A DNA stretch of 38,293 nucleotides, taken from positions 1 to 38,293 of the forward strand of contig SLCF01000093.1 in NCBI GenBank assembly GCA_007125955.1, read 5' to 3'. The notes under the pieces were generated by a model. The model was not told where the DNA came from, ran no database searches, and saw only the letters and a program-made list of their open reading frames with translations. The position numbers and the translations under genes were made by a program. This stretch comes from Bacteroidales bacterium. Its GTDB lineage: Bacteria; Bacteroidota; Bacteroidia; Bacteroidales; PUMT01. This document shows positions 21,936 to 27,901 of this stretch, one piece after another (position 1 is the stretch's first letter; every line of letters starts with the position of its first letter).

Positions 21936-24900
21936 ATGATGGCTATTACTAAAGCAAAAGGATTAAAGTCATTAATTATGTTGTGCCTGATAATGGTGGC
22001 GTACCTGGCCGGACAAACGGATGCCCTTTCTCAGGGTTTCGGAAGAAATAAACCAAGCTACAGGAGTTTCGATTACAAAGTTTTCAGCACATCAAATTTT
22101 GACATATACCACTACTTCGAAGATGACAGCCTTATCAAGGAATTTGGCGTAATGTCCGAAAAATGGTTTAAACGCCATTACGAAGTACTGAGGGATTCAA
22201 TTCAGACACCGAATCCCATGATCATCTATGAAAACCATCCCGATTTTCAGCAGACAACTGCAATCAGCTCTTTAATAGGGATAGGAACGGGTGGTGTTAC
22301 AGAATCACTTAAAACAAGGGTTATTTTTCCCGTTCTTGAAACGAATGCCCAGACCAACCACGTTCTGGGGCACGAGCTTGTCCATGCATTCCAGTTTAAC
22401 ATGCTCTCGGAACAGGACACTCTAAACAGGACGTCTATTGCAAACCTTCCGCTCTGGATGGTTGAAGGTATGGCTGAGTATATGTCTATCGGCAGTGTTG
22501 ACCCGCATACGGCAATGTGGATGAGGGATGCGCTTATTCAGGACGACTTTCCTGCTGTTGACGACCTTGTAAGATATCACGATTACTTCCCCTACAGATG
22601 GGGACATTCATTCTTTGCTTTTGTTGGCAGAACATGGGGTGACGACATTATTCCCGAACTGTTCATGGAAACAGCCAAATGGGGATACAGGCGTGCAATA
22701 GAAACCACCCTTGACATGAGTCCCTCAACCTTTTCAGAAGTATGGAGAAATTCCTATGAAAGTCATTACAGAACATTCATTCCGGAAACCCTTCCCGAAA
22801 TGACGGGAGAGAAGATCCTCTTTGACAAGACTGCAGGAACAATGAATGTATCGCCTTCTATAAGTCCAAACGGCAAATATGTTGCCTTTTTCTCTGAAAA
22901 GGATGTGTTTACACTCGATCTGTTCATTGCCAGCACAGAAGACGGAGAAATTCTAAGATCGCTTACAAGCTCTACAAGAACAAGAGATATTGACGGGTTT
23001 AACTTTCTCGAGTCGAAAGGGACATGGTCGCCTGACAACCGTCATTTTGCTTATGTGGGTGTGAAGAAAGGTAAAAACAAACTTTTTATAGTAGATATTG
23101 AAAGGCCCAGGCGTTCACCACGGGAGATTGAAATACCGGGTGTGCCCTCTTTCAATAACCCTTCATGGTCGCCCGACGGAAAAAGGATAGTTATGAACGG
23201 ACTGAAAAATGGCCGGAATAATATCTTTATTTATAATATGGAGAGCAAAAAGGTGGAACAGGTTACAAACGACCGCAATTCCTATATCCACGTAAACTGG
23301 TCTCCCGGAGGCGACATGCTTTTGTTCTCTACCGACCGGAGGCAGCCCGGTGACACAGGAACAGAACCAAATTATAAATTCAACATTGGGATGGTCGACC
23401 TTGTAAAAGGTAATGATATGACCATAATCCCAGTATTTAAGGGAGCCAACAATGTTAATCCGGTTTTTTCATCTGACGGGGAATCGATATTTTTCCTGTC
23501 AGACAGCGACGGTTTCAGAAATATGTATGAATATACAATAAGTGATGAAAAACTTTACCGCCTTACAGAATACCCTACCGGTATAAGCGGAATAACCTGG
23601 CTTGCTCCTGCTATGAGCATCTCGAGTGAAACTGACAGGATTGTTTACTCATACTACTTCGACAATAGCTATTCTGTATACACCGCACATAAAGACGACT
23701 TTGAACGAAAAGAGGTAAACCCGAAAAATGTGGACCTTCTTGCAGCAACCCTGCCCCCTTTCCAGAGGGTTGCAACCAATATTGTTGACAGGAATATGAG
23801 AGAATACGCCAAAGTGGAAGAGATTGAAACCGACTCCTTTTCCGTAAAACCCTACAGGCCGCAGTTCAAGCTTGACTTTATAGGTAATACCGGAGGGGTT
23901 GGTGTTTCATTCGACACCTATTACGGTACAGGTATGTCAGGCGGAGTCAACATGTATTTCAGTGACATTGTCGGTGAACAAAGCCTTTACACAGCACTGG
24001 CAGTAGAAGGTGAAATTTACGATTTTGCCGGACTGGCATCTTATCTCAATCAGGATGGAAGAATTGACTGGGGTGCAACAATCTCACACATCCCCTACCG
24101 TACCGCAAGAATGGGCTTCTCTCAGGAGCTGATCGAGATAGGGGATGACGAATACATGGTTGTGGACAATTTCCGCCTTTATAATATCCGTACTTTTGAA
24201 GACCAGCTCTCCCTCTTTGCCCATTATCCGTTTTCAGTTACAAGACGGCTGGAGGCTTCGGCATCACTGGCAAGGTACTATTACCGGATTGACGTTTTCA
24301 ACCATTACTATGATCAGTTCGGCTTCCAGATAGGACAATCACGGGAACAGATCGATGCACCGCCCGGATTTACACTTGCCAGAGCAAACACAGCATATGT
24401 GGGCGACAACTCCTACTTCGGGATGGCTTCTCCAATGAGGGGGCAAAGGTACCGTCTCCATCTTGACAAGTATTTCGGGGAAATCGATATGTACCAGTTC
24501 ATAGCTGATTACAGGAGGTATCACTTTTTCAATCCGCTAAATTTTTCCTACCGCCTGTATCACAGCGGGAGGTACGGCAAAGATGCTCAAAATGATATAT
24601 TTTATCCCCTGTATCTTGGTTTCCCCGGTTTTTTAAGAGGATTCACCACAAACCAGTTTTACGAACTGCAATCAATAAGAGACTCTCAGTTCTCATTCAA
24701 TGATATGATAGGCACACGGATGCTTGTGGCCAATGCAGAGATCAGACTTCCGTTTACCGGGCCTGAAGTGCTGGCTGTAATTGAGTCTGGTTTCTTTTTT
24801 ACAGAGCTTAACCTTTTCTTTGATGCAGGGGTTGCCTGGACAAGCGATATCAGACCCACCCTCGACTCCGGGGATATGTCGGGCCGGTTCCCGTTTTTCA

Positions 24901-25028
24901 GTGCAGGCGCCTCAATGCGGGTTAACCTTTTCGGATATATGATTCTTGAGCCTTATTATGCTTATCCCATACACAGGGAAGGCATTATAGGAGGGGTGTT
25001 CGGACTGAACTTCCTTCCGGGCTGGTAA
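21936..25028 (+). CDS. Secreted gluzincin-like peptidase / TolB-like propeller / Omp85-like barrel fusion
   Basis: This 1030-residue protein has a hydrophobic N-terminal signal (about residues 10-33). Residues 45-280 form a metallopeptidase-like domain with HELVH (146-150) and, 27 residues on, WMVEGMAEY (Glu177 a likely third zinc ligand). Residues about 280-590 carry at least five TolB/PD40 propeller repeats, marked by SPNGKYVAFFS, SPDNRHFAYVG, SPDGKRIVMNG, SPGGDMLLFS and SSDGESIFFLS. The last 400 residues look like an Omp85/surface-antigen barrel, with SPMRGQRYRLHLDK and a loop-6-like FLRGF, ending GLNFLPGW. I infer an outer-membrane-anchored peptidase or surface receptor. No POTRA repeat is visible. 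Its substrate is unknown. It is convergent with the pseudophosphatase gene. Confidence 0.78.
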   Translation: MMAITKAKGLKSLIMLCLIMVAYLAGQTDALSQGFGRNKPSYRSFDYKVFSTSNFDIYHYFEDDSLIKEFGVMSEKWFKRHYEVLRDSIQTPNPMIIYENHPDFQQTTAISSLIGIGTGGVTESLKTRVIFPVLETNAQTNHVLGHELVHAFQFNMLSEQDTLNRTSIANLPLWMVEGMAEYMSIGSVDPHTAMWMRDALIQDDFPAVDDLVRYHDYFPYRWGHSFFAFVGRTWGDDIIPELFMETAKWGYRRAIETTLDMSPSTFSEVWRNSYESHYRTFIPETLPEMTGEKILFDKTAGTMNVSPSISPNGKYVAFFSEKDVFTLDLFIASTEDGEILRSLTSSTRTRDIDGFNFLESKGTWSPDNRHFAYVGVKKGKNKLFIVDIERPRRSPREIEIPGVPSFNNPSWSPDGKRIVMNGLKNGRNNIFIYNMESKKVEQVTNDRNSYIHVNWSPGGDMLLFSTDRRQPGDTGTEPNYKFNIGMVDLVKGNDMTIIPVFKGANNVNPVFSSDGESIFFLSDSDGFRNMYEYTISDEKLYRLTEYPTGISGITWLAPAMSISSETDRIVYSYYFDNSYSVYTAHKDDFERKEVNPKNVDLLAATLPPFQRVATNIVDRNMREYAKVEEIETDSFSVKPYRPQFKLDFIGNTGGVGVSFDTYYGTGMSGGVNMYFSDIVGEQSLYTALAVEGEIYDFAGLASYLNQDGRIDWGATISHIPYRTARMGFSQELIEIGDDEYMVVDNFRLYNIRTFEDQLSLFAHYPFSVTRRLEASASLARYYYRIDVFNHYYDQFGFQIGQSREQIDAPPGFTLARANTAYVGDNSYFGMASPMRGQRYRLHLDKYFGEIDMYQFIADYRRYHFFNPLNFSYRLYHSGRYGKDAQNDIFYPLYLGFPGFLRGFTTNQFYELQSIRDSQFSFNDMIGTRMLVANAEIRLPFTGPEVLAVIESGFFFTELNLFFDAGVAWTSDIRPTLDSGDMSGRFPFFSAGASMRVNLFGYMILEPYYAYPIHREGIIGGVFGLNFLPGW

Positions 25029-25059: not shown

Positions 25060-26757
25060 TCAGCGGATAATTTCCATTATGGGTTGTCCGCTGAATGAAT
25101 TCCCGTATGGAGTATTCAGCATAAAAGAAATAGTTGGAGCAATATCGGTTATACTCACCGGTCTGTTTACTTCTGTTTTATTTACACCCCCTCCGTACCA
25201 CATAAGCGGCACATGCGAATCCGTAACAGGCATTCCTGAAGGGTCTTCAGTAACCGACCGCTCCTCCCATCCCGGTCTCAGGCTTATTATTATGTCACCT
25301 GAACGCTTTGTATTAAAGCCTTCCTGAACGGCTGCGCCCGGACCGCTGGTGTAATAATTGCTCATCAGCATGTGGGCTGTGAATGTTCTTGATACACCGC
25401 TTACCTGGTCAAGAAAAGCAGCTGACTTCATCTGTATATCGCCCAGCGGAATATTTGAATCCTCTGCAAGCAGCCTGTTCAGGTAAACCTGTCTTGCATG
25501 ATAGCCAAGCACCCAGTCTCCTTCACCGTACGTAGCGTTCAGGTAACTTCTGAGCAGTGCCATGGCGGCACCCTGACTGAAAGTGCCTGTTGGTATTCTT
25601 GAAGCGTTAAAATATTCCCGGGGATAGGAAGCACCCTGATCTGATGTAATAAAAAGAAGAATTTCTTCCTTTTCGAAATTCTGATCAAGAAACTGGAGCA
25701 GGTGTGCTATCTCGGCATCAAGCCTCAGATATGCATCCTGAGCTTCAGGTGAGAAAACTCCGTGTGTATTGCCTATCTCAGCAGCGGCAGAAAAGCCGAT
25801 TACTACCATATCGATATTTTCGCCTGCGCCCAACTCCTCATTCAGGATAAGCGAGAGAGCAAAATCTTTTGTAAAAGTATTCCCGTAAGGAGTGCGTGCA
25901 AGAAGATTGTAGTTGTCATCTCCCCGACTTTCACGCTTAAGGTCGTATTCGAAAGTTTGTGAACCTGAAATGTTCTTTTCACTTTCTATGGAAAAGTACT
26001 CTCCGAAAGCAGGCAACGGTTTCCATGTCCGTTCCAGATAGCTTTCAGGCAGCCTCTTCCGGTTGAACTCATAAACCCATTGAGGCATTGAATCAATATA
26101 ATAGGTGCTTGACATCCATTCACCCGTTTTTTTATCGAACCACCATGCAGCATCAGCTGAAAACCCGCCGGAAATGACAGCCCCCGGAGAGTTCATTGAA
26201 ACTGTAAAAACCCTGGATCTGAAATCATTTGCTTTCTTTATAATATCTCCGATAGTTTCAGACATTAAATTTACGGGCGATCTTCCCCCCTCATTAAATG
26301 TTCCTCCAACAGCCCTTGCAGTTTCATCATGATCGCTTTTCAGGGTTGTTCTTTTCAGACGCTGATACCACTCATTTGAAATAATACCGTGTTCAGAGGG
26401 ATTTGCGCCTGTAAAAATAGTTGCATATCCAGGTGATGACTGGTTGTGAAGGTAGTCGTATGTTGCATTCCGGCAAAAAGCCCCTTCGGATGCTATTTTT
26501 TTAAACCCGTTTTTCCCAAACCTGTTCCACATTCTTACAAGATAGTCATAACGCATTTTTTCGATAACTATCCCAACTACCAGCCGGGGATTTTCAACCT
26601 GATCCATGGATAACGGCAGATCTTCTTTTTCTGAAGCATGAATAGTGAATTGTGACGGTAAAACAAACAGATTCAATAATAAAATTACTGCAAAAAGCCT
26701 TAATGCGGCGGTACAGTGTTCCAGACTTACGGTCGTGTAAAAATTACATCTCATCAT
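25060..26757 (-). CDS. PafA-type alkaline phosphatase family protein, catalytic residues largely lost
   Basis: This 565-residue protein has an N-terminal hydrophobic signal (about residues 17-35) and aligns along its length with the PafA alkaline phosphatases of Bacteroidota (VVGIVIEKMRYDYL, ATIFTGANPSEHGI, DAYLRLDAEI, HVPLMWYGGG, SITDIAPTI). By my alignment from memory, active-site positions are altered: metal-ligand Asp is Glu66, nucleophile Thr is Ser107, the Asp and His of the D-x-x-x-H pair are Ala326 and Asn330, the DH pair is Asp373-Gln374, and the last ligand His is Pro506. It is therefore probably not an active zinc phosphatase and may act as a binding protein. Likely periplasmic. 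It ends 31 bases from the peptidase-propeller-barrel gene, facing it. Confidence 0.82.
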   Translation of the reverse strand: MMRCNFYTTVSLEHCTAALRLFAVILLLNLFVLPSQFTIHASEKEDLPLSMDQVENPRLVVGIVIEKMRYDYLVRMWNRFGKNGFKKIASEGAFCRNATYDYLHNQSSPGYATIFTGANPSEHGIISNEWYQRLKRTTLKSDHDETARAVGGTFNEGGRSPVNLMSETIGDIIKKANDFRSRVFTVSMNSPGAVISGGFSADAAWWFDKKTGEWMSSTYYIDSMPQWVYEFNRKRLPESYLERTWKPLPAFGEYFSIESEKNISGSQTFEYDLKRESRGDDNYNLLARTPYGNTFTKDFALSLILNEELGAGENIDMVVIGFSAAAEIGNTHGVFSPEAQDAYLRLDAEIAHLLQFLDQNFEKEEILLFITSDQGASYPREYFNASRIPTGTFSQGAAMALLRSYLNATYGEGDWVLGYHARQVYLNRLLAEDSNIPLGDIQMKSAAFLDQVSGVSRTFTAHMLMSNYYTSGPGAAVQEGFNTKRSGDIIISLRPGWEERSVTEDPSGMPVTDSHVPLMWYGGGVNKTEVNRPVSITDIAPTISFMLNTPYGNSFSGQPIMEIIR

Positions 26758-26815
26758 CGGTAAATATTTTTTTCAAATAATACTATCTTCCATTACAATC
26801 AAAAAGGCCTTTAAT

Positions 26816-27901
26816 TCAGACATTAAATCTGATATTCAGAATGTCTCCGTCTTTTACCTCATAACTCTTACCCTCAACTGAAATCTTTCCTTTGTTCCGG
26901 CAGGCTGCTTCGGAACGAAGGTTAACAAAATCGGCAAATTTTATGACTTCAGCCCGGATAAACCCCCTCTCCATATCGCTGTGGATAACTCCTGCAGCCT
27001 GATGTGCATTCATCCCTGCCCTTATAGTCCATGCTCTTATCTCTTTGGGACCGATTGTAAAAAAGGTTCTCAGATTCAACAAACTGTATGCTGCTCTTGT
27101 CAGCCTGTCAACTCCCGGTTCTTCCAGTCCCATCGCATCCAGAAATTCCTTCCTCTCTTCAGATGATTCAAGCTCCGATATTTCCGCTTCAATTCTGGCA
27201 GCTATAACCAGCACCTTTGCTCCCTCTTCTTTCAGCTTTTTCTTTACCTTTTCCGAATGTTCATTTCCTGCTGCAGATGACCGGTCGTCTACATTACAAA
27301 CATACAGTACAGGCTTCTCAGAAAGAAAATCAAGATCTTCTACGTGTCTTTTGTCTTTTTCAGATATTTTCATTGTCCTTGCCGGCTGCAGGTTCTCAAA
27401 ATGCTCCCTGTACCTGTAGAGAACATCAAGTCCTTTTTTTGCTTCCCTGTCACCCGTGCCGGCAGGTTTGACAAGTTTTTCTATTTTTTTTTCAAGTATC
27501 TCCATATCCTTAACCTGCAATTCGAGTCCGACGGTTTCAAGATCTGTTAACGGATCTATTTTATCGGAAACATGGGGCACATTCGGATCATCGAAACACC
27601 TCAGAACATGTATCAGTGCATCTGTATTCCTTACATCTCCCAGAAACCTGTTGCCCTCCAAACTGCCTCTGGACACACCCGGAATGTCGACAATATCTAC
27701 TGTTGTAGGAACTATCTTCCTGGTTTCCTGAAATCTGGCAATTTCACACAACCTCCGGTCAGGCACCTTCATCATACCCAGATTCGACCCTGTTGAACTG
27801 AATGATGATACAGAAGTTTGCACTCCTGCACCTGACATACAATTAAAAAGTGTTGTTTTACCCGAGTTGGTTATTCCAATTATTCCGCATTTTAATCCCA
27901 T
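26816..27901 (-). CDS. Divergent YchF-like GTPase/ATPase with TGS domain
   Basis: This 361-residue protein follows the YchF layout: an Obg-like G domain, a helical insert (about 125-200) and a C-terminal TGS domain ending GDILNIRFNV. YchF proteins bind ribosomes and are linked to stress responses. This copy departs from the usual motifs: the P-loop is GITNSGKTT rather than GLPNVGKST, the switch I region NFPFCTIEPN is replaced by a Ser-rich segment (about residues 29-40), and switch II is shortened (DIPGVSRGSLEGN). The C-terminal half (IRAWTIRAGMNAHQAAGVIH) is well conserved. It may be a paralog of a canonical ychF elsewhere in the genome. Confidence 0.85.
   Translation of the reverse strand: MGLKCGIIGITNSGKTTLFNCMSGAGVQTSVSSFSSTGSNLGMMKVPDRRLCEIARFQETRKIVPTTVDIVDIPGVSRGSLEGNRFLGDVRNTDALIHVLRCFDDPNVPHVSDKIDPLTDLETVGLELQVKDMEILEKKIEKLVKPAGTGDREAKKGLDVLYRYREHFENLQPARTMKISEKDKRHVEDLDFLSEKPVLYVCNVDDRSSAAGNEHSEKVKKKLKEEGAKVLVIAARIEAEISELESSEERKEFLDAMGLEEPGVDRLTRAAYSLLNLRTFFTIGPKEIRAWTIRAGMNAHQAAGVIHSDMERGFIRAEVIKFADFVNLRSEAACRNKGKISVEGKSYEVKDGDILNIRFNV

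Follow-up and report, generated by a model that had tools for sequence, protein, structure and literature searches.

Loss of the catalytic site and gain of a conserved segment in a predicted secreted PafA homologue of the Bacteroidales

The window, by which is meant the whole stretch of DNA analysed (38,293 nucleotides, contig SLCF01000093.1 of the Bacteroidales bacterium assembly GCA_007125955.1), contains on its minus strand an open reading frame of 565 amino acids with no internal stops, which is homologous over its whole length to PafA, the Pi-insensitive alkaline phosphatase of the Bacteroidota, and is referred to here as pseudo-PafA (PafA' in gene orders). It is the only PafA homologue in the genome, which is 90.7 % complete. 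A convergent gene on the plus strand (21936-25028) encodes a 1030-aa protein with a HELVH metalloprotease-like N-terminus, a TolB-like beta-propeller and a probable outer-membrane barrel at the C-terminus, and is found at the pseudo-PafA locus only within the family of the window's genome (14 loci). The main features of the locus are as follows.

25060..26757, minus strand: pseudo-PafA open reading frame, single copy in the genome, full-length PafA fold (phmmer, AlphaFold model)
26632..26757, minus strand: N-terminal region, residues 1-42, with a hydrophobic helix at 13-32 (DSSP of the model; sequence LRLFAVILLLNLFVLPSQFTIHA-SEK)
26816..27901, minus strand: YchF-family GTPase gene, upstream of and co-directional with pseudo-PafA, about 60 bp away

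The open reading frame matches Pfam PF01663 (E 3.6e-27) and, in a phmmer search of PDB chains, Elizabethkingia PafA (5tj3, E 6.3e-85), with residues 48-564 colinear with PafA residues 9-533. An AlphaFold2 model of the window protein (mean pLDDT 88.2) returned 5tj3 as its first structural match (E 7e-51, TM 0.84/0.91, rmsd 2.5). A first-pass annotation had described the protein as full length and colinear with PafA and as retaining the fold-defining segments, and the alignment and the model bear out both points. Full-length homology and fold place the protein with PafA, including that of Flavobacterium johnsoniae (PMC8812569), from which it differs in lacking the catalytic residues, in a shift of conservation to residues 391-454, and in scoring 473.6 bits against the PafA equivalog model NCBIfam NF042991, below the cut-off of 650 that an intact relative from within the same clade (L110) passes with 706.4 bits. 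The superfamily fold is shared with PhoK/SPAP (PDB 3q3q, 5xwk) and the NPP/ENPP phosphodiesterases, which are catalytic enzymes and are 21-22 % (SPAP) and 11-15 % (NPPs) identical to the window protein. Residues 1-42 with the helix at 13-32 are probably a Sec signal peptide, and the protein is predicted to be secreted, as had been proposed earlier; no lipobox cysteine was seen on inspection of residues 1-42.

The numbering of PafA was confirmed on the PafA sequence, in which D38, T79, N100, K162, R164, D305, H309, D352, H353 and H486 all occur as expected. Their counterparts in the window protein are E66, S107, N128, N189, P191, A326, N330, D373, Q374 and P506, located as listed below.

26560..26562, minus strand: E66, at the position of the PafA metal ligand D38 (alignment to PafA)
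26437..26439, minus strand: S107, at the position of the PafA nucleophile T79 (alignment to PafA)
26185..26193, minus strand: N189-S190-P191, at the PafA phosphate pocket K162-D163-R164, with both basic residues lost (alignment to PafA)
25768..25782, minus strand: A326 to N330, at the PafA metal ligands D305 and H309, both lost (alignment to PafA)
25636..25641, minus strand: D373-Q374, at PafA D352 (kept) and H353 (lost) (alignment to PafA)
25225..25254, minus strand: residues 502-511, the PafA H486 loop, with P506, no histidine and predicted disorder (alignment; model pLDDT <50)

Eight of the ten active-site residues are changed, and among these only E66 and S107 are conservative. The two-metal ligand set (D38, D305, H309, D352, H353, H486) retains D352 alone, with D38 replaced by Glu, and the nucleophile and pocket set (T79, N100, K162, R164) reads S107, N128, N189 and P191, of which N128 is kept. 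In PafA, D305/H309/H486 form one metal site and D38/D352/H353/T79 the other; judged by the alignment, the former is gone from the window protein, together with the Lys and Arg of the phosphate pocket. All seven active-site residues that the first-pass annotation had named proved correct, and the Lys/Arg loss it had suspected is evident in the change from SLKDR in PafA to SMNSP. Metal ligands in shifted positions are unlikely, since there is no His anywhere in residues 500-514, H515 is the counterpart of a second-shell His of PafA itself (DSH-PL), and H332, two residues past N330, is not conserved, being Tyr in the relative L095. One metal might still be bound by E66, S107, N128 and D373, and a weak activity is conceivable; we infer that pseudo-PafA lacks phosphatase activity.

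Of the 149 genomes of the order, 86 have a homologue, as do 24 of 31 close relatives. Named loci from the genome scan were degenerate in Bacteroidales MAGs, Labilibaculum and Prolixibacteraceae, and intact in Flavobacteriales, Cytophagales, Chitinophagales, Balneolaceae and Ignavibacteria; two genomes (G002 and G064) have both kinds of copy, canonical and degenerate. When the 165 collected homologues were scored for the seven metal and nucleophile residues (D38, T79, D305, H309, D352, H353, H486), 62 had all seven, 103 had 0-4, and none had 5-6. The loss in the window protein is thus beyond chance: losses of this kind affect 103 of the 165 homologues, and half-intact sequences are absent.

The residues that have become conserved lie elsewhere in the protein, in the following segment.

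25396..25587, minus strand: residues 391-454, with gained conservation, the proposed functional segment (permutation p 2e-4; non-overlapping bootstrap ratios)

Column identities were compared on sequences dereplicated at 60 %. Mean identity over 391-454 (query numbering) was 0.28 in canonical PafA (0.545 over 57-390) versus 0.43 in the degenerate clade (0.39 over 57-390), and the ratio of the segment to the rest had 95 % bootstrap intervals of 0.50-0.56 and 1.06-1.16, respectively; the segment is the least conserved part of canonical PafA and the best conserved part of the degenerate clade. Identity of the pocket columns fell from 0.99 to 0.20. This inversion of conservation, gained in 391-454 and lost in the pocket, is new here. 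The largest losses relative to canonical PafA are at H309, H486, Y112, H83, H353, R164, D305, P76, T79 and D163, and the largest gains, in query numbering, at W415, F393, Y405, Q451, F448, L401, Y419 and E432. The gains are concentrated in 391-454 (permutation p 2e-4, the lowest value attainable with 5000 shuffles), where the conserved residues are F393, L401, L402, S404, Y405, N407, A408, W415, Y419, E432, Q442, F448 and Q451. The degenerate set is the more diverse (mean pairwise identity 0.374 versus 0.458), so the gain is not due to closer sampling, and members linked to the lipoprotein N-acyltransferase gene lnb follow the same pattern (0.587 versus 0.503). The segment is predicted to form a strand-helix-hairpin-helix unit with many W, Y, F, L and Q residues, and is a candidate interface; its gained conservation could instead reflect packing.

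Several members of the clade have fully intact sites (INTERMEDIATES), namely L006 (the same gene as L110 and L198), L012, L199, L200, L201, L203, L205 and L209, and the clade is separated from canonical PafA with 100/100 support after removal of the active-site columns. These intact members carry 13-14 of the 14 signature residues and canonical sequences 1-7. The signature residues were picked on the same alignment as the comparison of canonical and degenerate sequences, so that part of this contrast is built in; the intact in-clade members lay outside the picking set and their signature is therefore an independent result. Since they already bear it, the simplest reading is that the second role probably arose first and that catalysis was dropped later. 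In family f89 the intact L201 pairs with the degenerate L204 (support 83/93). Tree tests rejected a single loss neither in a 95-row alignment, where the single-loss tree was 30 log units higher (p-AU 0.785), nor in a 59-row alignment with more intact in-clade members, where it was 21.5 lower (p-AU 0.11). Residue logic favours at least two losses of catalysis, because none of the ten positions has been lost throughout the 125 degenerate sequences and a minimum of two positions is needed to cover them all; reversals, or a first loss outside the ten sites, would weaken this argument.

It is likely that pseudo-PafA is a secreted, non-catalytic descendant of PafA, and hence of the alkaline phosphatase superfamily, which acts through 391-454 and not through the old pocket. 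It would be a periplasmic or cell-surface protein that selection has kept for binding or scaffolding, with the 391-454 subdomain most likely serving as the interface in place of the former phosphate pocket. Candidate partners come from the gene neighbourhood. In many families the order is transketolase - YchF - (M14 carboxypeptidase) - PafA', with YchF preceding pseudo-PafA and an M14 carboxypeptidase gene often in between, followed by GGGPS, PPTase, GldD and GldE on the other strand; one large clade has Lnb - PafA' - SecA, and two genomes of another family have Lnt - small ORF - PafA'. The CrcB, GldD, GldE, GGGPS, PPTase and SecA neighbours were named from sequence by eye and are presumed to be such, as is Lnt in L063 and L064, the position of which agrees with TIGR00546 matches in G010 and G128.

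Lnb lies directly upstream of PafA' in 23 of the 149 genomes by coordinates, with a spacing of -24 to 99 bp in ten inspected loci, and in another four genomes (G089, G080, G125, G097) Lnt is on the PafA' contig, no more than about 18 kb away. In the genome of the window, Lnb and Lnt are on contigs other than that of pseudo-PafA. Lnb was present in 60 of 86 genomes with PafA' and in 11 of 63 without (Fisher p 1.4e-10), a co-occurrence confounded by phylogeny. The best NCBIfam match of the DUF4105 neighbour is Lnb NF051878 (396.7 bits, under the model cut-off of 550), and it also matches the Pfam Lnb_N model. DUF4105 is reported to be the lipoprotein N-acyltransferase of Bacteroides, its genes having repeatedly been displaced by Lnt, in three genomic contexts (PMC12994826). 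Lnb is a genomic partner and not a homologue of PafA', having an unrelated fold, a permuted NlpC/P60 (PMC12994826); in the large clade the two coding sequences overlap or are at most 99 bp apart.

The Lnb linkage is an inherited gene order of one clade; elsewhere the neighbours are, in most lineages, YchF/M14 or GldD/GldE. The partner of pseudo-PafA is a matter for speculation. With Lnb immediately upstream of the gene in 23 genomes, and the unrelated Lnt upstream of it in two others, the best lead is lipoprotein maturation or the biogenesis of the envelope. That the protein is a partner of lipoprotein N-acylation in particular, as against another envelope process, is a speculative and rather doubtful proposal. 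We are equally tentative about the broader reading, of order-wide envelope pseudophosphatases in which 391-454 had its role while PafA was still active, catalysis was lost at least twice independently, and the product now partners Lnb/Lnt or another envelope step. The chances are about even that a variant of the main reading holds, in which the protein is a non-catalytic envelope scaffold unrelated to lipoprotein acylation, for example in T9SS or outer-membrane assembly, its neighbourhood being frozen gene order. The neighbours shared by many families, an M14 carboxypeptidase (the one example tested carries a T9SS sorting tail), GldD/GldE, and SecA or YchF, agree with such a role, as does the weakness of the Lnb/Lnt linkage outside one clade; the tight Lnb-PafA' coupling kept in 23 genomes, and the presence upstream in another lineage of a second, non-homologous N-acyltransferase gene (Lnt), count against it.

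The pattern of decay bears on whether the old site still does anything. Each of the ten sites is kept in 6-54 % of the 125 degenerate sequences, with many different replacements, and every one is still wild type in some member. The D38 site is D or E in 109 of the 125 and S in 12; the T79 site is S or T in 74, with A/N/Q/I/P/R at the nucleophile in many others; D352 is kept in 54 %, with T/N/S/A there in 53; K162 survives in 10 % and R164 in 6 %. The frequencies at D38, T79 and D352 indicate that constraint is stronger on one half of the old site than on the other, and would suit an enzyme whose chemistry has changed, a hydrolase or transferase working with one metal or none through E66, S107, N128 and D373. 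We consider this improbable, since the pocket columns, averaging 0.20 identity, fall under the protein mean, and a check for a recurring shared replacement set was negative: replacements vary by lineage, including at the D38, nucleophile and D352 sites, and all ten sites are wild type somewhere. On this pattern the degenerate active site is one freed from constraint and not one new site. The same lineage-to-lineage variation indicates that the empty pocket does not serve as a conserved site of binding, and the earlier suggestion of a secreted phosphate- or phosphoglycan-binding protein using the old pocket accordingly found no support: the retained fold may have preserved the outline of the pocket, but K162 and R164 are rarely kept, no alternative pocket residues are conserved, and the conserved part of the protein is 391-454. 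Binding of this kind is very unlikely.

Full-length open frames were found in nearly all genomes with a homologue. The NG86 dN/dS of degenerate pairs was 0.017-0.139, mostly near 0.06, overlapping that of intact pairs (0.048-0.074); the comparison of the window protein with its 68 %-identical congener L094 (dN 0.23, dS 2.2) is saturated and carries little weight. By these rates, pseudo-PafA genes are under purifying selection comparable to that on intact PafA. A functionless decaying gene, a pseudogene in progress, which might explain why each lineage has lost its catalytic residues in its own way, has next to no likelihood and is refuted by a dN/dS of about 0.06 and the newly conserved segment 391-454, with conserved synteny and the nearly universal full-length frames also against it. 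With the fold kept, the catalytic residues lost, strong purifying selection, and the loss recurring in orthologues of many families, the first-pass reading of the protein as a pseudoenzyme holds.

PafA has been presented as a ubiquitous, constitutive phosphatase of the Bacteroidota, and key-residue variants were deliberately taken out before its phylogeny was constructed (PMC8812569), which is why the degenerate clade is absent from that tree. Among open-licence full texts, no report of a degenerate PafA or of an AP-superfamily pseudophosphatase was found, prior notice elsewhere being possible, nor any phenotype for pseudo-PafA. Most of the Bacteroidales homologues sampled are degenerate, with altered key residues, so homology-based annotation and metagenome counts would overstate phosphatase potential. 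The series of canonical, intact with signature, half-degenerate and fully degenerate forms is a rare one, along which the transition from enzyme to pseudoenzyme can be tested. Should the Lnb link be true, pseudo-PafA would be an extra partner for a lipoprotein pathway discovered only recently.

Some further features of the neighbourhood were noted. A CrcB-like gene is a neighbour common to some canonical and degenerate loci; this CrcB/Fluc-type fluoride channel gene, as we take it to be, is immediately upstream of PafA, or separated from it by one gene, at L056, L110, L126, L128-L130 and L133 and at the canonical loci L135, L136, L142, L143, L151, L168 and L181, which is consistent with one ancestral locus. 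Lnt is just upstream of degenerate PafA in L063, L064 and L159, where other lineages carry YchF/M14. Lnb is present too in genomes G010 and G128, on a different contig, so that both N-acyltransferases coexist, and the window's genome likewise has both (Lnb on contig C35, Lnt on C114). The M14 carboxypeptidase gene between YchF and pseudo-PafA is missing in the window's genus (26757-26816) and in L094, L095, L097, L098 and L102. The YchF of the window (26816-27901, minus strand) is the only one in the genome (TIGR00092, 352.9 bits) and has VSSFSSTGSN in place of the usual NFPFCTIEPN switch region. This region is also altered in several Bacteroidales lineages (L066, L074, L094-L099, L102, L104-L106, L109, L111, L124-L126, L128, L129, L131, L132 and L134), and is canonical in L055, L107, L108, L130 and L133; divergence of switch I in a GTPase that is nearly universal merits separate attention.
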